From a virus, in IMG/VR virus record IMGVR_UViG_3300010313_000005, positions 1-33,280 of that record: a DNA stretch of 33,280 bases; one strand, 5' to 3'. Positions 11,631 to 25,322 of this stretch are shown piece after piece. The notes below the pieces were generated by a model. That model ran no database searches. It saw nothing but the letters and a program-made list of their open reading frames with translations, and was not told the origin of the DNA. Made by a program: the position numbers and the translations under genes. Position 1 is the stretch's first letter, and each line of letters opens with the position of its first letter.

Positions 11631-14024
11631 ATGACGACCCTGAAAATCGACAGTTTTGGCGGGGAGATGCCATCGGTGTCCCCTCGCGCACTGCCCCCTC
11701 AGGCCGCGCAGACCAACAGCAACCTGTTCCTCGCAACATCGGAGTTCCGTCCGCTGTCCGAGGATTTCACCGTTGCCGCCGCCCCGTTGAACACCAACTC
11801 GGTGTATCGGTTCGCGCGCACCCCCGCGGGTGACCTGAACACGAACACTGCGACCGGATGGGTGACCTCGACCAAGGTGCGCAACTACGTCAAGGGTCAG
11901 ATCAACGATGAGCGGACCGAACGCACCTACTTCACCGTGGGGGATGGTTCGGAGCCGATGAAGGCGATCACGGCAGCCAACCCAACGACACCTCGCCTGG
12001 TGGGTGTCCCTGCCCCCATGAAGCCCACCGCCACGGTGGTGGTCACCGACGAGCTGACTCCTGATGAAGCGAACGACCACATCAACAAGGTGGCGATCCA
12101 CGAGATACACAAGATTCTGCTGGCGGGCATCAATAACCCCAGCAATGTGGCCATCGACGAGGGTCGCCGCACACTGGCCGGACTGCCTGCGGCGGGCTCG
12201 TTCCAACTGTGGGGCATGTACTGGACCGACCATCCTGTGCTACAGGGCGTGTACGCCGACAAGCCGTACTACGCTGTGGCCGTGTTCCCGTACACCGCTG
12301 CAGAGAAGATGAACCTACTGATCGGTGAGATGGACGGTCGCGGCCTCCCACTGGGGAACGGCCCCTATACCAACGCCGCCATCCCCGTGATCGGGGTGCC
12401 GTTCGCCTACTGGTTGAACACCGAAGTGGTGCGCGCTAACCTGCGCACCGTGGTATTCCCGGCGACCGGGTTCGGAGCGAAAAGCGGCCAACGGGTGCTC
12501 ACCGAAGCACAGATCACCGACCTGCTGGTCAAGACGATCAAGTGGTTCACGGCCGACACGTACGCCCGCGCGCAGCGCGAGAAGCTGGACGCTGAAATCC
12601 AGGCGTTCGTCAAACTGCTGGTCGCCGCCCCGGACGGGTCTCACGCCACCGTCATGGCCATGCGCAGCCGCATCGCAGCCGCCACCCACGACGTGAACGT
12701 GAAGTCTGTGGAGCGTCTCAAGCAGTTCTCTGAGGACACGATCTGGGTCAAGGAGTGGGTCGATTCCAAGGGTGGCCCGAGCGCGTTCGTGGGTACGACC
12801 ACCCAGCGCTCCATCGAGACACGGTTCTACGTAGCGACCTTCGTGACCGACTGGGACGAGGAGTCCGCCCCCAGCGAACCCACCGCGGAGCTGGAACTGG
12901 ACCAGAACGATTCCGTGACGGTGTTGCGCCCGGACCTTCCCCCCAGTGAAACCTTCGCAGGCCGGAATATCAACCGGTGGCGCATCTACCGTAGCAACTC
13001 GGGCGGCGAGACCGCATCGTTTCAGTTCACCGAGGAACTGAACATCAACACGACCTCGTACTTAGACACCAAGAAGGCCGCGGCCCTCGGGGAAGTCTGC
13101 CCAACGACCACCTGGGCCATGCCACCCAAGCGCGAGACGGGGACGAATCCTCACATCCGAGGTCTGGTGGGCATGCCCAACGGGATCATGGTGGGGTTCT
13201 TCGACAACACCCTGGCGTTCTGCGAACCATACGTGCCGTACGCGTGGCCTGTCGAGTACCAGATCACGACTGAATTCCCTGTCGTGGGCCTGGGCGTTTT
13301 CGGCCAAACCGTGTTCGTGGGCACCAAGGGCAATCCTTACTTTGTTCACGGCGCGGACTCCGCGAGCATGTCCGCGGTCAAGCTAGATGCCCGCCAGTCC
13401 TGTGCGTCTGCCCGCTCAATCACCACCGTACAAGGGGGCGTGTTGTACGCTTCCCCGGATGGCTTGTGCCTCGCCGACCCCAATGGGGTGCGGCTCATCT
13501 CCAGCGCATTTTTCACCCGTGAGGACTGGCAGAAGCTGGTCCCCGAGACAATGGTGGCCGCAAGCCACGAGAACATTTGCTACATGTTCTACGAGGGCAA
13601 CGGCGGAGGCTGCATCTCGTTTGACGCGCAAGCCGCTAAACTTGGCCGGCTGAACCTGAGCGCAGCAGCAGCATTTTCCGACACCGTGACGGACACCCTC
13701 TATGTGGTGAATGGGACGGAAATTCGCGCAGTGTTCGGTGCGGCCACCCGGCGCACGGGCACCTGGAAGTCTCCGCGCATCACCCTCCCCCGATACACCA
13801 GCTTTAGCTGGCTCAAGGTGTACGGCAATCAGACCCTCACTGCCCCGGTCGTCGTGCGCTTGTTCGGCGATGACACCCTGGTGCACACCGTCTCGATCAG
13901 CGACACGTCTCCCGTGCGTCTCCCAGATGGTCGCCGGCTGGAGTACGAGATTGAGATCGAATCGCGCTCGCGCGTCACCCGGGTGATCATCACCAGCGAC
14001 ACTCAGGAGCTTCAAGCAGTATGA
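11631..14024 (+). CDS. Tail nozzle / tail tubular protein B-like
   Basis: This 797-residue protein is the likely distal tail tube component corresponding to T7 gp12. The N-terminus has the family-like start LKIDSFGGEMPSVSPRALPPQAAQ, then beta-rich domains. In the second half come RNINRWRIYRSNSGG, a fibronectin-like segment, the stretch HIRGLVGMPNGIMVGFFDNTLAFCEPYVPYAWP, and FGQTVFVGTKGNPYFVHG, which I recall from podophage nozzle proteins. The C-terminal part reads TGTWKSPRITLPRYTSFSWLKV. A well-placed GGAGTGAT precedes ATG. It lies after the lysis genes, away from the adaptor genes, which differs from T7 order. Confidence 0.75.
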   Translation: MTTLKIDSFGGEMPSVSPRALPPQAAQTNSNLFLATSEFRPLSEDFTVAAAPLNTNSVYRFARTPAGDLNTNTATGWVTSTKVRNYVKGQINDERTERTYFTVGDGSEPMKAITAANPTTPRLVGVPAPMKPTATVVVTDELTPDEANDHINKVAIHEIHKILLAGINNPSNVAIDEGRRTLAGLPAAGSFQLWGMYWTDHPVLQGVYADKPYYAVAVFPYTAAEKMNLLIGEMDGRGLPLGNGPYTNAAIPVIGVPFAYWLNTEVVRANLRTVVFPATGFGAKSGQRVLTEAQITDLLVKTIKWFTADTYARAQREKLDAEIQAFVKLLVAAPDGSHATVMAMRSRIAAATHDVNVKSVERLKQFSEDTIWVKEWVDSKGGPSAFVGTTTQRSIETRFYVATFVTDWDEESAPSEPTAELELDQNDSVTVLRPDLPPSETFAGRNINRWRIYRSNSGGETASFQFTEELNINTTSYLDTKKAAALGEVCPTTTWAMPPKRETGTNPHIRGLVGMPNGIMVGFFDNTLAFCEPYVPYAWPVEYQITTEFPVVGLGVFGQTVFVGTKGNPYFVHGADSASMSAVKLDARQSCASARSITTVQGGVLYASPDGLCLADPNGVRLISSAFFTREDWQKLVPETMVAASHENICYMFYEGNGGGCISFDAQAAKLGRLNLSAAAAFSDTVTDTLYVVNGTEIRAVFGAATRRTGTWKSPRITLPRYTSFSWLKVYGNQTLTAPVVVRLFGDDTLVHTVSISDTSPVRLPDGRRLEYEIEIESRSRVTRVIITSDTQELQAV

Positions 14025-18611: not shown

Positions 18612-21600
18612 ATGTCAGGACTCTGGGATTCCTACAACCCCGGCGCTCAAAAGCCGGACGACAAGCCTTGGTACAGCGACGCTTATGAGATTGGTCGGCA
18701 AGCAGTTGCCGGTGCCGCCGTTGACCTACCACGAATGGCTGGCCAGGCTGCCCGCTGGGTGGCTCAGGACGGCACAAATCTTGACGAGTGGGGTCGCAGC
18801 ACGGTAGAGGCTGCAGACGCTCGCGCACCGGAGTGGGCGCCAGATATGGAAGGCCGTGGGGGTCTCGCGTCCACGCTCATCAAGGGTGCCCGCGCAGTGG
18901 CTCCAATGGCCCCGGCCATCGCAGCGTCGTTCGTTCCGGGCGGTCAGTGGATCGCACCTGCGGTCGCCGCGGGTCAGTTCGGTGCCAGCTCGGCGCAGGA
19001 CACTGAGGATAAGCTGCGCAACCAGGGTATTTCCGACGCCGACGCCACCGCTGCAGGCTGGCGTACAGGGCTCATCCAGGGCCCAATGGAAGGTATCGCA
19101 ACGGCAGTCGGTGCCCGCGCGTTCGCAGCAGCAAAACCTCTGCTCGGCATCGGCTCCCAAACCACTGCTGGTATCGCTGCGCGCGCCACTGACACAGCCG
19201 TCATCAAGCCTCTGGCCAAGGGCCTCGGTCTCAACTTGCTGGTGCAGCCTGCCACGGAAGTCGCGCAGGACTTGGGCACAGAATTCAACGAGCGCTCTTT
19301 TGGGGCAACCCCACAGGATGCCTGGGAAATCGCAAAGGACAGTGCGCAGGGCGGCATCGGTTTGACACTGCTGCTGGGTCCCTTCGCCGCTGGTGGCCAC
19401 GTGAGCCGCGCGGGTCGCGCTCAGGCGATGAAGGACGCCCTCTACAGTCCGAACACGCCGGAAATGGTGCGCGCCCAGGCGCGCGACCTGATTCTGGCAG
19501 AGGCCCAGAAGCAAGACGTTTCTCCCCAGGACATGGAGTCGTGGCTCGATCAGCAGTTCATGGGTGACGATGCGCGCTTCGCCGATGAGGCGGCCCGTTC
19601 CGCCGACGCTGGTCCTACGCTGGTGACTGAGCCTGCACCACTGCAGGGTCGAATTGACAGCGCCCTTGCCATCGGCGCACCCAGCGAGCGCAAGGGGTAC
19701 GAAAAGCGCTTCGAGGCAGCGGCGTCTGCACCTGGCGGGGTTCGCATTTCCGACCCACAGACCGGTGTCGAGCGTGAACTCTCCGCACTTGAGGTGGCCC
19801 AACGTGGCGTAGATGGCTTGGACAGCCCTCTCGGTGCGCAGCAACCATCCCCTACGGCAAACACCCAAGGTAGTACCGCCGTCACGCAGCTCGCAGAGAC
19901 GCAACGTGCGGCAATTGAACAACGCACCCGGGCCGCAGCTGCAGCTGCTGTACCACCAACTCCCGCCCAGCAAGAGGAAGAAGCTGCCGCGGCAGAACAA
20001 GTGCGCCTCGCCCAAGAGGCAGTGGTCTTCATTCAGCAGAACGGGATCGCGGCCAAGAACGCCCTTCCCGTCGTGAAGGAGATGCTGGCGTCAGGTCAGG
20101 TCCTCACCCCCGCCCTGCGCGGTGCAATGCGCGGCGCCCTTGTCACAGGTGACGTGAACGGCGCTCGCAAGATGCTCGTCGAGGCCAAGAAGGCCAAGGC
20201 CAAAGCCGACGCCGCCGTGGCCAAGGAAATCGAAGCGGTCAACAAGGACCAGGCCGAACAGGACCGCGTTGCGGCCGAGGTCATTGCTGCTCGTGAAAAG
20301 AACCAAGCCCAACAAGGAGCCAAGGTAGATGCCCCCACGCCTGCGAACCCTGGAGCGCAAACAAGCCCAACGACGAGCCCGCAAGGAGCGACGACGAGCG
20401 CAGCGCCAACAGTAGCGGAAAAGACACCTGGTCAGAAGCTGATCGAGGGTATCGAGGCTCGCTCTGGCAAGAAGGTGCACCCACAGGCTAAGCGCCGACT
20501 CTACCTGCTGGCCGGACTGGACCCAGACGAGGGATTCATGGTCGGTAGCCCCAAGACGCTTGAACAAGTCGCAGCGATCGAAGCCGCCATGTTGGGTGCA
20601 TCGAAGGCTGTCAGCCGTGAGGCCATCCGCAAGTCTTTGGCCGTGTACGGCATCAACTCCGACGTGATGAACCGCCTCGGCGCGATGGTCGCTACCCAGG
20701 AGGACGCGAGCGCCACGGAGACCAATGCCGATGGGGAGCTGGTGGATGTGGTCGCACCGGAGGACAACACACCGGTCACACAGGATGAAGCATTCGGTGC
20801 AGCCATGGAGGGGTCTCAGGACTCCGGTGGAGGCATGAGTGTTCGCAGCAACCTCGGCTCCGGAATCGTTGAGCCAGAAAAAACTTCGGCTGTGGCGCGC
20901 GTGGAGAAGCAAGCTGACACCCTGCTGGCCCAGGCCGCTGGTTCCAGCACCAAACGCGGTGCCGATGCTCAGGAACGCCTGAAATCCGCCGTGGACGAGG
21001 CAACAACCCAAGTCGTGAGCCCTGAGCAGATCGCCAAGAATGCTCAGCTCATCGCAGAGAACGCCAAGCTGATCGAGGAGATGAACCGCGAGGTTCAGAC
21101 TCGCTCCAAGCTGCGCAACCTGCTGCCGGAAGCGATGCACGCTGAGATCGAGCGTGCTGCCGAGGACTTTGCTGAGACCATGGCTGAGGGCGATACCGCT
21201 TGGGGTGACCTCGAACCGCAACGCCAAGCACAGTGGGTAAAGGCGTTCGTGTCATGGGACACGGGTAACATCGACACCCGCACCTTCAACAAGATTTTCG
21301 AGGGTATCCAAGATGACACACGACGAGAAGCTGGCCAAGTACGAGGCCAACCTACTCAACCTGGCCCAAAACCTGTCGGACCCCGAGATGGCAATGTACG
21401 ACAAGACGCACCCCGAAATGATGTTCGAGGTGCGGGCGAAGCGACTGGAGCTGCAGAATCTGCCGCCCGAGGAGCACAAGAAGCAGTTGATGGCGCTGGT
21501 GCAGAGCAAGTAGCGCTCGGCCCAGACGAGCGTAGCGGCCTAGATGCAACTACGCAGCGTGAGCGCGATCTGCGTGCCCTTTCGCACGAGGTGGAGCAAC

Positions 21601-24600
21601 CCGGAGATGTGATGCTGGGCAACGACAAGTTCGTTACCCTGGAGCAGGCAAAAGCCGCCGCCCAAGCCGCCATCGACGCAGGAGTGCTGCGTGCAGACGC
21701 ACCCTTCCAGTACAACAACATTCTGGACATCGCCCCCCGCGACTGGGGTCGCATGGTCAAGGAGATGACCGGCCAGCCCCCACTGGAGGTTGGCAATGCC
21801 CGGTTCTCGCGCACGATGCAGCCCATGGGATCGCTGCGCGACAAGGTTGGCAAGCAAGTTCAGGTGATGCCTCAGTCCGTGGCCGACATGGAGCGCACAC
21901 CGGCCATCAAGAAGGTCTTTGACAAGTACCGCGCTGACGGCATCGGGCACATCCTTGGCGCGGTCAAGGACTGGTTCGTCACTGCCAACCGCACCGACTG
22001 GGGCGGCGCCTACACCGAGATCAACGGTCGCCCTGCCGTGGTGATGACCATGCGCACCATGCTGTTCCCCGACCAGGCCGAGTGGACAATGCACCACGAG
22101 ATGGGTCACGCCGTTGACCTGTCGATCCCAGGTGGCGCCTACTCCGGTATGCCGGAGTTCAACCTGCGCATCGTCGGCGACAGCATCCGAGCCCACGGCC
22201 TGATCGCCGAGCAGGTGTTGGACCACTACGAGCAGAACCCTGACTCACCATTTGCTGGAACCATGCGTTACCCACTGGATCGAAAGACCCACGGTGATCT
22301 TGACGCACAGGCCATCCGCGAAGAAATGTTTGCCCAACTCTGGGCTACCTACAATACACGTGCCGGCAAGGAGTACCTGGAGGACAACCTGCCGGACGTG
22401 GCCGATTTCATGGAGACGGTATATGCCGACATCGCCCAAAACCAATACGGAGAAGAAAGCAGCCCTGGCGGCCCGGATGGCGGATCGCCGCAAGGCCGCG
22501 CCAGTCGCAGCCAAGCGCCCCGGTATGCGCGTGCGGAGCCTGGACCCCGAGGGAATGACCAGCCCGTTCGTTTCAGCCGTGGCAGCGCCCTCCAAGCCCA
22601 ACTGACACCAGCGGCCCGGGCCGCATCGGGCGCAACCTCGCAGTTCATCAAGGACGTGAAGTCCCAGGGCATCCTGTGGGGCGCATTCACCGAGGACCTC
22701 ATCAACTCGGTCGCAGCCAAGCTGCCATCCGCCAAAACCTACCTGGACCTGGTCAAGCGCTCGCAGGTGGCGAAGACTCGCGCCGAGCGGGAGATTGAGT
22801 CGATCCTTGACATGTATAACGCCCTGCCCAAAGCGGAGCGCGGTACTGGCCCAGGCAGCGTCAACGCCTTCCTCAAGGACTCCACAATGGCGAAAGCCTG
22901 GGGATACCAGCCGACCTATCTGCACACTGTGCAGATCGACCCGGCCATGGAGGCACGCTACAAGGCCATGTCCCCGCAGGCTCGCCAGCTGGTCACGGCG
23001 GTGTTCAAGCATGGTCACGATAACCTGGTGGCCCTCAAGTCCGCCGTCATCGGCAACATCAACACCGAGTTCGACGCACTGATCGCCGGGTATGAGGCTG
23101 AGGGTGACAAGCGCGCGGCCGACGCTGAGCGCAAGGCCAAGCAAAAAGCCCTGCGGGACTTCGAAAGCCTGAACGCCCTGGACGGCAGCTGGCCCTACGC
23201 CCCGCTCAAGCGCTTCGGTAACCACGTGGTGGTGGGCAAGTCCCAGGCGTACCTGGATGCTGAGGAGGCCGGTGACACCCGCCGCCTGGAGACACTGCGC
23301 GCTGACGAGAATCACTACTTCGTGTCCTTCACCGACACCAAGTACGAGGCCCGCGCGCTGCGCGAGAAAATCTCCGGTCGCTATGCCGACGCCACCAACT
23401 TCGAGAAGGATGGTGTCGAATACGGATCGCGCGACATGCTGGGCGCATTCCGCCGCCTGCGCACCCTGGTGGATGACAGCCAGGACGACAAGCTGTCCAC
23501 GAACGCCAAGAAGGCCATGAACCGCCTGATGGTGGACCTGCACCTGACACTGCTCGGTGAGCAGAGCGCGCGCCAGGCAGAGCGCAACCGTACCGGGGTG
23601 GCCGGTGCAGATGCCGACATGATGCGTGCCTTCGCAACGCAGGGTCGGGCCAGCGCCCACTTCATCGCCAGCCTGACCAACAACGGCCAGATCGCGGAGC
23701 AACTGCGGACCATGCGCCAGGAGGCCGACGGTTTCCGTGGTGCCGAGCGTGAAGGCACGCGGGCAGCCTACAACGAGGTGCTGCGTCGCCATGCCATGGG
23801 CATCGACTACCAGCCCACCCCTCTGGTGGACAAGGCCCTGAGCGCCAGCTCGGTGTGGATGCTGCTGACCAGCCCCGCCTACTTCCTGACCAACGCCACG
23901 CAGCCGTTCGTTATGTCGCTGCCGACCCTGGCTGGCAAGCACGGGTACACCCGCTCGTTCTCGGCCATGACCAAGGCATACAACGACATCTTCCCGCTGG
24001 TGAAGGACGGAACGATCACCCAGGACGACTACAGCCGTATGCCGGCCGATGTGAAGGCGATCATCGAGGACCTGGTGAACCGTGGTCGCATCGACATCTC
24101 GCTGGAGCAAGACCTCGGCCGCTGGCGCTCGACGGAGGACAGCAAGCTGGCTGTGTTCGGGAAGGCCGTGGACAAGATGCGTGGCGTCACCCAGACGGTG
24201 GAATCCGTGAACCGCATCGTCACGGCCATTGCCGCTGCGCGCCTGGAGCTGGGTCGCAACGCCAACCCTTCGCAGGCTGCTGACTACGCCGAGAGCGTGA
24301 TCTTCAACACCCACGGTGACTACAGCGGCTTCAACGCCCCACGCGTCATGCGCACCGGCATCGGCCGCCTGTTGACCCAGTTCCGCAAGTTCCAGCTGAT
24401 CCAAATCTCGCTGTATGCGAAGCTGCTCAACGGGGCGTTCAAGGGTGCCACCGCCGAGGAGCGCCTGGTGGCCCGCAAGGCGCTGGCCTTCAACCTGACC
24501 CACATGTTCCTGCTGGGTGGTGCGCTCGGCATGCCAGGTGCACAGGTGATCGGCTGGGTGCTGCGCCAGGTGTTCGGTGACGACGATGAGCCCGACAACC

Positions 24601-25322
24601 CAGAGGTGACCCTGCGCCGCATGCTGCCCCCGGAGCTTGGTGATCTGCTGGTAAAGGGTGCACCGGCCGCACTTGGCATTGACCTGTCGGGTCGCCTCGG
24701 GGCCGGCAACATGCTGTCGCTGCTGCCATATGCTGACACCTCGATCAGCCGCAAGGGCTACGAAGCCGCGGTGATGGGTGCACTGGGACCATTCGTTGGT
24801 GGCCTGCTGCCGAAGTTCGCTGATGGCATCGACCTGATCGGCCAGGGTGACTACTGGAAGGGTTCCGAGCAGCTGCTGCCCAAGGGGTTCGCAGACCTGT
24901 CGAAGGCCATCCGCCAAGAGACCTCTGGCATGACGCAGCGCAACGGCGACCTGGTGATGAGCCCGGAGGACATCTCGTTCCTGGCTGGCGTATCCCAGGC
25001 CATCGGCCTTCCCAGCACGACGATCACCGACCGCAGCATGCGCGCCAGTGCGAAGTTCAAGGCGGACGAGTTCTTCAACAATCGCACCGCGCAGATCAAG
25101 CGCGAGTACGTGGAGGCTTACCGTTCCGGCGACAACTCTGCGCTCAGCGAGGCCCGCCAGGAGTGGCTGCGCTTGCAGGAGGCTCGCCAGGGGTACGGAT
25201 ACAAGGTTCAGCCGCTGTCCGAGTTGCTCAAGGCCCCCTCAGCGCGCGCCAAGCGCGAGGCCAATACAGCAGGTGGGGTGCAGTTCCGCAAGGAGAACGA
25301 GGCGTTTGTCCGGGCCCTGTAG
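18612..25322 (+). CDS. Giant ejection protein with HEMGH metallopeptidase motif (T7 gp16 position)
   Basis: This 2236-residue protein is the longest product in the window. The N-terminal region (about 1-230) is Gly/Ala-rich with amphipathic, membrane-like segments (APMAPAIAASFVPGGQW; QFGASSAQDTEDKL). A coiled-coil and linker region follows. A central domain carries HHEMGHAVD (His1162, Glu1163, His1166), the HExxH zinc-protease signature, with a candidate third ligand in REEMFAQLW (Glu1237/1238). The C-terminal half is helical, with conserved-looking LLTSPAYFLTNATQPFVMSLP and GRLLTQFRKFQLIQISLYAK. It is followed by a Gly-rich hydrophobic stretch (MFLLGGALGMPGAQVIGWVL). No lytic-transglycosylase motif like that of T7 gp16 was recognised. 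It is probably ejected into the cell envelope. Three nested ORFs lie over its linkers. Confidence 0.8.
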   Translation: MSGLWDSYNPGAQKPDDKPWYSDAYEIGRQAVAGAAVDLPRMAGQAARWVAQDGTNLDEWGRSTVEAADARAPEWAPDMEGRGGLASTLIKGARAVAPMAPAIAASFVPGGQWIAPAVAAGQFGASSAQDTEDKLRNQGISDADATAAGWRTGLIQGPMEGIATAVGARAFAAAKPLLGIGSQTTAGIAARATDTAVIKPLAKGLGLNLLVQPATEVAQDLGTEFNERSFGATPQDAWEIAKDSAQGGIGLTLLLGPFAAGGHVSRAGRAQAMKDALYSPNTPEMVRAQARDLILAEAQKQDVSPQDMESWLDQQFMGDDARFADEAARSADAGPTLVTEPAPLQGRIDSALAIGAPSERKGYEKRFEAAASAPGGVRISDPQTGVERELSALEVAQRGVDGLDSPLGAQQPSPTANTQGSTAVTQLAETQRAAIEQRTRAAAAAAVPPTPAQQEEEAAAAEQVRLAQEAVVFIQQNGIAAKNALPVVKEMLASGQVLTPALRGAMRGALVTGDVNGARKMLVEAKKAKAKADAAVAKEIEAVNKDQAEQDRVAAEVIAAREKNQAQQGAKVDAPTPANPGAQTSPTTSPQGATTSAAPTVAEKTPGQKLIEGIEARSGKKVHPQAKRRLYLLAGLDPDEGFMVGSPKTLEQVAAIEAAMLGASKAVSREAIRKSLAVYGINSDVMNRLGAMVATQEDASATETNADGELVDVVAPEDNTPVTQDEAFGAAMEGSQDSGGGMSVRSNLGSGIVEPEKTSAVARVEKQADTLLAQAAGSSTKRGADAQERLKSAVDEATTQVVSPEQIAKNAQLIAENAKLIEEMNREVQTRSKLRNLLPEAMHAEIERAAEDFAETMAEGDTAWGDLEPQRQAQWVKAFVSWDTGNIDTRTFNKIFEGIQDDTRREAGQVRGQPTQPGPKPVGPRDGNVRQDAPRNDVRGAGEATGAAESAARGAQEAVDGAGAEQVALGPDERSGLDATTQRERDLRALSHEVEQPGDVMLGNDKFVTLEQAKAAAQAAIDAGVLRADAPFQYNNILDIAPRDWGRMVKEMTGQPPLEVGNARFSRTMQPMGSLRDKVGKQVQVMPQSVADMERTPAIKKVFDKYRADGIGHILGAVKDWFVTANRTDWGGAYTEINGRPAVVMTMRTMLFPDQAEWTMHHEMGHAVDLSIPGGAYSGMPEFNLRIVGDSIRAHGLIAEQVLDHYEQNPDSPFAGTMRYPLDRKTHGDLDAQAIREEMFAQLWATYNTRAGKEYLEDNLPDVADFMETVYADIAQNQYGEESSPGGPDGGSPQGRASRSQAPRYARAEPGPRGNDQPVRFSRGSALQAQLTPAARAASGATSQFIKDVKSQGILWGAFTEDLINSVAAKLPSAKTYLDLVKRSQVAKTRAEREIESILDMYNALPKAERGTGPGSVNAFLKDSTMAKAWGYQPTYLHTVQIDPAMEARYKAMSPQARQLVTAVFKHGHDNLVALKSAVIGNINTEFDALIAGYEAEGDKRAADAERKAKQKALRDFESLNALDGSWPYAPLKRFGNHVVVGKSQAYLDAEEAGDTRRLETLRADENHYFVSFTDTKYEARALREKISGRYADATNFEKDGVEYGSRDMLGAFRRLRTLVDDSQDDKLSTNAKKAMNRLMVDLHLTLLGEQSARQAERNRTGVAGADADMMRAFATQGRASAHFIASLTNNGQIAEQLRTMRQEADGFRGAEREGTRAAYNEVLRRHAMGIDYQPTPLVDKALSASSVWMLLTSPAYFLTNATQPFVMSLPTLAGKHGYTRSFSAMTKAYNDIFPLVKDGTITQDDYSRMPADVKAIIEDLVNRGRIDISLEQDLGRWRSTEDSKLAVFGKAVDKMRGVTQTVESVNRIVTAIAAARLELGRNANPSQAADYAESVIFNTHGDYSGFNAPRVMRTGIGRLLTQFRKFQLIQISLYAKLLNGAFKGATAEERLVARKALAFNLTHMFLLGGALGMPGAQVIGWVLRQVFGDDDEPDNPEVTLRRMLPPELGDLLVKGAPAALGIDLSGRLGAGNMLSLLPYADTSISRKGYEAAVMGALGPFVGGLLPKFADGIDLIGQGDYWKGSEQLLPKGFADLSKAIRQETSGMTQRNGDLVMSPEDISFLAGVSQAIGLPSTTITDRSMRASAKFKADEFFNNRTAQIKREYVEAYRSGDNSALSEARQEWLRLQEARQGYGYKVQPLSELLKAPSARAKREANTAGGVQFRKENEAFVRAL
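20329..20415 (+). CDS. Nested 28-codon ORF, basic peptide (candidate)
   Basis: This ORF lies in the +1 frame within the ejection-protein gene. AAGGAG (20314-20319) is nine bases before ATG. The peptide is almost all Arg, Gln, Lys and Ala (RKQAQRRARKERRRAQRQQ in its body), so it could bind nucleic acid. Codon third positions do not distinguish it from the host frame (17 of 28 G/C against 16 of 29, counted by hand), and short ORFs of this size arise by chance. The host frame here encodes a Pro/Thr/Ser/Ala linker (about residues 573-601). Confidence 0.3.
   Translation: MPPRLRTLERKQAQRRARKERRRAQRQQ
21313..21513 (+). CDS. Nested 66-codon gene overprinted in the ejection-protein gene
   Basis: This ORF is in the +1 frame relative to the host gene, with GAGGG (21300-21304) eight bases before ATG. 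The protein looks natural: a charged helical N-terminus (MTHDEKLAKYEANLLNLAQN), a middle with DPEMAMYDKTHPEMM, and a helical C-terminus (RAKRLELQNLPPEEHKKQL). By hand count 59 of 66 codons end in G or C, the genome's normal habit. The host frame over the same bases has only 16 of 67 and encodes a low-complexity Arg/Gly/Gln/Pro/Ala linker. Selection therefore seems to act mainly on the nested frame. I recognise no family; it may be an assembly factor for the ejection proteins. Confidence 0.7.
   Translation: MTHDEKLAKYEANLLNLAQNLSDPEMAMYDKTHPEMMFEVRAKRLELQNLPPEEHKKQLMALVQSK
22423..22605 (+). CDS. Nested 60-codon ORF downstream of the metallopeptidase domain (candidate)
   Basis: This ORF is in the same +1 frame as the two other nested ORFs, with GGAG (22412-22415) seven bases before ATG. 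The product is basic with a natural composition (KKAALAARMADRRKAAP, then RPGMRVRSLDPEGMTSPF and a Ser/Ala/Pro-rich end). By hand count 47 of 60 codons end in G or C, against roughly 60 percent in the host frame, which here encodes a Gly/Ser/Arg/Pro linker (about residues 1271-1331). The longer reading frame from 22252 overlaps the well-conserved protease domain and looks like a shadow before 22423. Confidence 0.45.
   Translation: MPTSPKTNTEKKAALAARMADRRKAAPVAAKRPGMRVRSLDPEGMTSPFVSAVAAPSKPN

Follow-up and report, generated by a model that had tools for sequence, protein, structure and literature searches.

Positions 21313-21513 of a 33,280-base virus record, the whole of which we call the window, very probably hold a real gene that is predicted to be translated and that lies in the +1 frame of a giant virion-type gene. 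Its codon signature is extreme, the edges of this signature fall at an ATG and a stop codon, and the substitution patterns of four families of small ORFs nested in related giant genes indicate purifying selection. A preliminary description of the window had taken the ORF to point to a real small protein, and in the light of these three lines of evidence we consider this by far the best reading.

The giant gene and its nested frame

The virion block of the window comprises a head-tail adaptor, a major head protein and an internal virion protein (phrog_511), and a giant ORF of 2236 residues is placed further along than this block. The features of the giant gene and of the overlap are as follows.

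18612..25322, + strand: host giant gene, 2236 aa, the C-terminal ~700 aa DarB-like/PLxRFG
21300..21304, + strand: SD-like GAGGG, 8 nt before the nested ATG at 21313
21312..21512, + strand: overprinting host stretch, an A/G/R/P/Q-rich low-complexity linker, host residues 901-967
21313..21513, + strand: putative nested small gene, 66 aa (MTHDEKLAKYEANLLNLAQNLSDPEMAMYDKTHPEMMFEVRAKRLELQNLPPEEHKKQLMALVQSK), ATG to TAG, +1 relative to the host frame
21612..21614, + strand: ATG inside the host gene and in its frame, shortly past the end of the nested ORF, preceded by GGAG at 5 nt
~22095-22109, + strand: HEMGH zincin-like motif in the giant gene, read from the translation
~23202-23219, + strand: PLxRFG motif (PLKRFG) in the giant gene, read from the translation, inside the aligned C-terminal region

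Recognizable similarity is confined to the C-terminal third of the giant protein, which contains all of its PHROG matches (best phrog_10089, E 2.1e-56) and matches 71 phage records in tblastn searches, while the remainder of the protein is without a match. The C-terminal PHROG match and the PLxRFG motif identify it as a DarB-like/PLxRFG protein, and the same third is homologous to the large polyvalent proteins (Iyer et al., 2017, PMC5512222), other members of which bear nested families. It differs from the group described there in that a Pfam search found no domain in it, and hence no LPD domain; the giant proteins of relatives bear LPD37, LPD38 and LPD39. Around the overlap the host gene has no close relatives in the collections searched. 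The preliminary description had noted that the host frame turns into a low-complexity linker at this point, and we agree: residues 877-954 are the only part of the giant protein in which hydrophobic residues make up 25% or less. GC3 over the entire giant gene is 0.74. The internal ATG at 21612 might, speculatively, act as a separate start for the C-terminal part of the giant gene.

The ORF at 21313-21513 is complete and lies wholly within the host ORF in a different frame, which is open for a further 24 codons upstream of the nested ATG. A GAGGG is indeed present eight bases before that ATG, as had been described, and its duplex energy with the anti-SD is -6.4 kcal/mol, compared with a mean of -5.8 for the real starts of the genome. 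Since 19% of chance +1 ATGs equal this energy, the ribosome-binding site is only average and on its own weak evidence, and we dropped it as an argument for a nested gene. We likewise dropped ORF length, because, when the host gene was shuffled synonymously 3000 times, 93% of the shuffled versions contained an ATG-started +1 ORF of at least 66 residues.

Codon statistics and the predicted product

Recounting gave the same figures as the preliminary description: 59 of the 66 sense codons of the nested frame end in G or C (60/67 with the stop), against 16/67 in the host frame. For the host peptide encoded here, shuffles led us to expect 48 +/- 3.6 such codons, so that the observed 16 is about 9 SD too low. 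The codon log-likelihood of the nested frame was 44.7, which corresponds to the 67th percentile of the phage's true genes. The best of 8100 shadow windows from the same genome reached 14.8 and the maximum over the 3000 synonymous shuffles was 9.5, with 0/3000 near the nested value; the earlier statement that the signal is much stronger than that of a usual shadow ORF thus held up well. The host frame scored -39.6 in the overlap, and the minimum among other 66-codon gene windows in the genome was -12.9. The result was the same when the giant gene was left out of model training. As a caveat, when the nested score was split, amino-acid composition contributed 39.9 and synonymous preference only 5.2, and the synonymous signal was found to sit in the host frame of the overlap (-35.8). 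An unsupervised search for a change point, or maximum-scoring +1 segment, returned 21309-21509, which matches the ends of the ORF to about one codon. Finally, codon usage correlated with that of the genome at 0.61 for the nested frame and 0.04 for the host frame in the overlap. Altogether, the nested codon signature is far beyond what chance produces in a shadow frame.

Among the coding-like +1 segments of the giant gene, the one at 22449-22569 ranks second (score 34.8); it too lies in a low-complexity type of host stretch, rich in G/P/R. A 42-residue ATG ORF at 22477-22605, without a convincing SD, weakly suggests a possible second nested gene.

AF2 run on the single sequence predicted four helices for the 66-residue protein with a pLDDT of 79.5, as compared with 49.4 for a control shadow +1 ORF from the same giant gene. 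Fold searches with the predicted structure gave no match with E below 3, and the protein has no Pfam domain above cut-off, no endonuclease and no PHROG match. A stand-alone homologue, for which the preliminary description had proposed a search, did not turn up: no credible relative was present among phages, IMG/VR, GTDB contigs, 32 related virus records (no tblastn match) or 399 genomes of one order. Three phage matches were obtained, at 30% identity and E about 3.

Nested families in related giant genes

Because the collections searched contained nothing resembling the 66-residue protein or the host sequence next to it, we moved the test to homologous and analogous giant genes. Relatives were reached via the upstream phrog_511 internal virion protein gene and via the C-terminal region, and their giant genes were scanned with genome-specific codon models. 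A C-terminal alignment for scanning the relatives proved too divergent and was dropped. The codon scan showed that many relatives carry strong nested ORFs in their giant genes. When genes of at least 900 residues were surveyed uniformly, 9 of 58 clusters had a strong nested ORF at +1 and none had one in the +2 or the three antisense frames, while genes of 300-900 residues gave few matches, spread over the frames. Strong survey matches in doubtful hosts (e.g. L111) were left out of the support. All-against-all clustering of nested translations returned mostly trivial shadows of conserved host genes and was used for candidate spotting only, and a possible analogue in L009, ending near 13354, was absent from the strong matches of the codon survey.

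At least four unrelated small-ORF families, which we call alpha, beta, gamma and eps, are nested in related giant genes, all in the +1 frame and in low-complexity linkers, and none of the four is annotated in the phage records examined. The 66-residue protein is not homologous to them, as its only tblastn match among 111 loci was its own locus. The window ORF resembles these families in its +1 frame, its low-complexity host linker, its nested coding signal and its ATG with an SD-like site.

The beta family, of about 105 residues (MNLNNW...), has a mean pairwise identity of 49% over ten cultured or sequenced phages (LASTA, SopranoGao, Pavtok, PEp14, Stean, VvAW1, Itty13, Mwe-JY07, POI1126 and Atu_ph08).

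L149-L156, L142, L004: beta loci, nested in PLxRFG/DarB-like giant genes, +1 frame, unannotated

Annotation coordinates place beta at +1 relative to the annotated giant CDS in nine of the ten phages. In Itty13 (L151) the deposited CDS is on the opposite strand; the frame lying one base ahead of beta is uninterrupted, for more than 1000 codons, and the annotation is probably on the wrong strand here. The host frame is open through the overlap in all ten, and in five of them the nested frame closes two codons ahead of its ATG. Gamma, with the core DPPSPFDTLQSWK...KQARxIIREK, was found at +1 in the giant genes of five phages or prophages of Rhizobiales and Ruegeria (L102, L104, L006, L141, L142), and in L102 a TAA directly precedes its ATG. 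The closed frame in five beta phages and the TAA in L102 exclude entry by frameshifting in these cases. PBC5 (L157, L006) is different: there beta forms the C-terminal end of orf33, the upstream gene, and shares its frame, so that the module can also be fused. The giant gene of PBC5 is split at this point, whereas those of its relatives are not, and either natural fission or an error in an old record would explain this. Alpha has four members and eps was found in nine records. Since eps, alone among the families, is without a clear SD, independent initiation may not apply to every relative.

Eps giant genes also carry, in L121 (from about host residue 1836 on) and L124, a second strong nested +1 ORF (MTQTVDRSDFPIPGSNYQDSNWLAWLDNP...). 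A further pair of nested +1 ORFs, similar to each other (MSEDxAIxLL...QLILFxQxAPPT/AAPT), is found in the giant genes of L032 (near 21057-21296) and L081 (near 20017-20274).

To compare selection in the two frames we used simple pairwise counts, which are uncorrected for the overlap and come from pairs that are not independent, so that the contrast between frames, rather than any single rate, is the evidence. For beta, pN was below pS in the nested frame in 45/45 pairs, and pN exceeded pS in the host frame in 41/45. Median dN/dS in the nested and host frames, respectively, were 0.62/1.69 and 0.80/0.66 for gamma (5 members), 0.25/0.57 and 0.31/0.27 for alpha (4 members), and 0.36/0.58 and 0.43/0.29 for eps (8 members compared). 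In the eps giant genes, moreover, the overlap had the lowest ratio of third- to first-position change in the host frame of all 60-codon windows (0.88). Judged by these contrasts, purifying selection acts on the nested frame in all four families, that is, in the relatives rather than in the window ORF itself.

Alternative explanations and the age of the two frames

The ORF could in principle be a chance shadow, left open in the +1 frame by an unconstrained, repetitive linker and giving no product. The abundance of equally long +1 ORFs among the shuffles, the low complexity of the host segment and the orphan status of the 66-residue protein in the collections searched are all compatible with this. 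However, neither linkers of the same genome nor synonymous recodings of this linker ever gave gene-like +1 codon statistics, the edges of the signature coincide with the ATG and the stop, the shadow control from the same gene folds poorly in silico, and related giant genes keep their nested proteins under selection; we therefore regard a chance shadow as very improbable. We find it improbable, too, that these residues are in truth part of the giant polypeptide, through two compensating indels (natural or from assembly) or programmed frameshifts into and out of the +1 frame at 21310-21510. The sequence comes from one contig only, which could contain an indel error; the coding signal does change frame at both ends, the nested frame is open before its ATG, and the fused beta module of PBC5 provides a precedent. 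On this reading, though, it would be a coincidence that the two ends of the signal fall on an ATG that has an SD and on a stop codon, and the relatives argue against it, with entry excluded in five beta phages and in the gamma ORF of L102 and the host frame kept open through the overlap in all ten beta phages.

Another candidate is a mobile insertion in which an ORF is concealed out of frame while the host frame is kept open. A known example is the ShiLan HNH endonuclease, which is hidden in a phage methylase gene (PMC11855218). The geometry is the same in both, an out-of-frame ORF in a stretch without host-frame stops, but in the ShiLan case the ORF belongs to a homing insertion, encodes an HNH domain, starts with GTG and lacks a detectable RBS, whereas the window ORF has an ATG and an SD-like site, is only 66 residues long and, by Pfam and PHROG searches, contains neither an HNH nor any other endonuclease domain. 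The nested families of the relatives are also conserved together with their host genes, and we think a mobile insertion hardly likely at all.

The preliminary description had the small gene overprinted in the ejection-protein gene. The overlap is real, but the direction is probably the reverse. By the codon-usage criterion, the ancestral frame is the one whose usage is near that of the genome (reviewed in PMC8227390); because this is the nested frame (0.61) and not the host frame (0.04), the small frame appears to be the older one, which suggests that the linker of the giant gene is the overprinted newcomer. A real nested gene that is younger than its host, born de novo in the linker by classic overprinting, is unlikely on the same criterion, even though overprinted genes that arose de novo are typically orphans and the de novo frame is at +1 in most internal viral overlaps (PMC8227390). 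The codon-usage argument is itself indecisive here, since a de novo gene may, given enough time, come to match the codon usage of its genome.

Our preferred reading is thus that a giant virion-type gene of the DarB-like/PLxRFG kind contains, in its +1 frame, a gene for a small protein. Translation of the latter would start independently, at the GAGGG...ATG within the mRNA of the giant gene, so that the small gene would always be co-transcribed with the giant one. The small frame would be the older, and the giant gene would run through it, its disordered linker being read from the alternate frame; a similar origin has been proposed for the spacer of the hepatitis B virus polymerase over preS (PMC8227390). 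There, too, the alternate frame of a small gene is proposed to join domains of a large multidomain protein, and codon usage is asymmetric, but the virus and the proteins are unrelated, and many phages show the arrangement, with small genes that are unrelated to one another. From co-location and co-transcription we would guess, with little confidence, that the 66-residue product, which is helical and slightly acidic, cooperates with the giant protein, either as its partner in assembly or by being packaged and injected together with it.

Nested out-of-frame phage genes are already known, and it is their recurrence in giant genes that is surprising. In the Rz/Rz1-type lysis genes of lambda, a small gene is embedded out of frame in a larger one, and Rz1 is an outer-membrane lipoprotein of the lysis cassette. 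The window product differs in that it looks soluble and helical, has no lipobox and is encoded in a virion gene block. A search of the literature that took in neither subscription papers nor preprints found no report of nested genes in the DarB-like/polyvalent protein class, and the word 'overlap' is absent from the text of Iyer et al., 2017 (PMC5512222).

We tentatively propose that in tailed phages it is common for giant polyvalent or ejection-type proteins to be built across small genes that are older than they are, that their disordered linkers may be the +1 reading of these genes, and that conserved, unannotated products of the same mRNA could work with the giant protein, the window ORF being an orphan example. 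Gene callers discard ORFs that are nested in a larger gene, and a conserved class of small phage proteins is therefore missed in genomes deposited as complete, among them those of cultured Klebsiella, Erwinia, Vibrio and Rhizobiales phages. Provided that they are translated, these ORFs would form a testable set of partners of, or proteins co-injected with, the large DarB-like virion proteins, and the nested families point to a concrete way in which phage proteins with several domains may gain their linkers.
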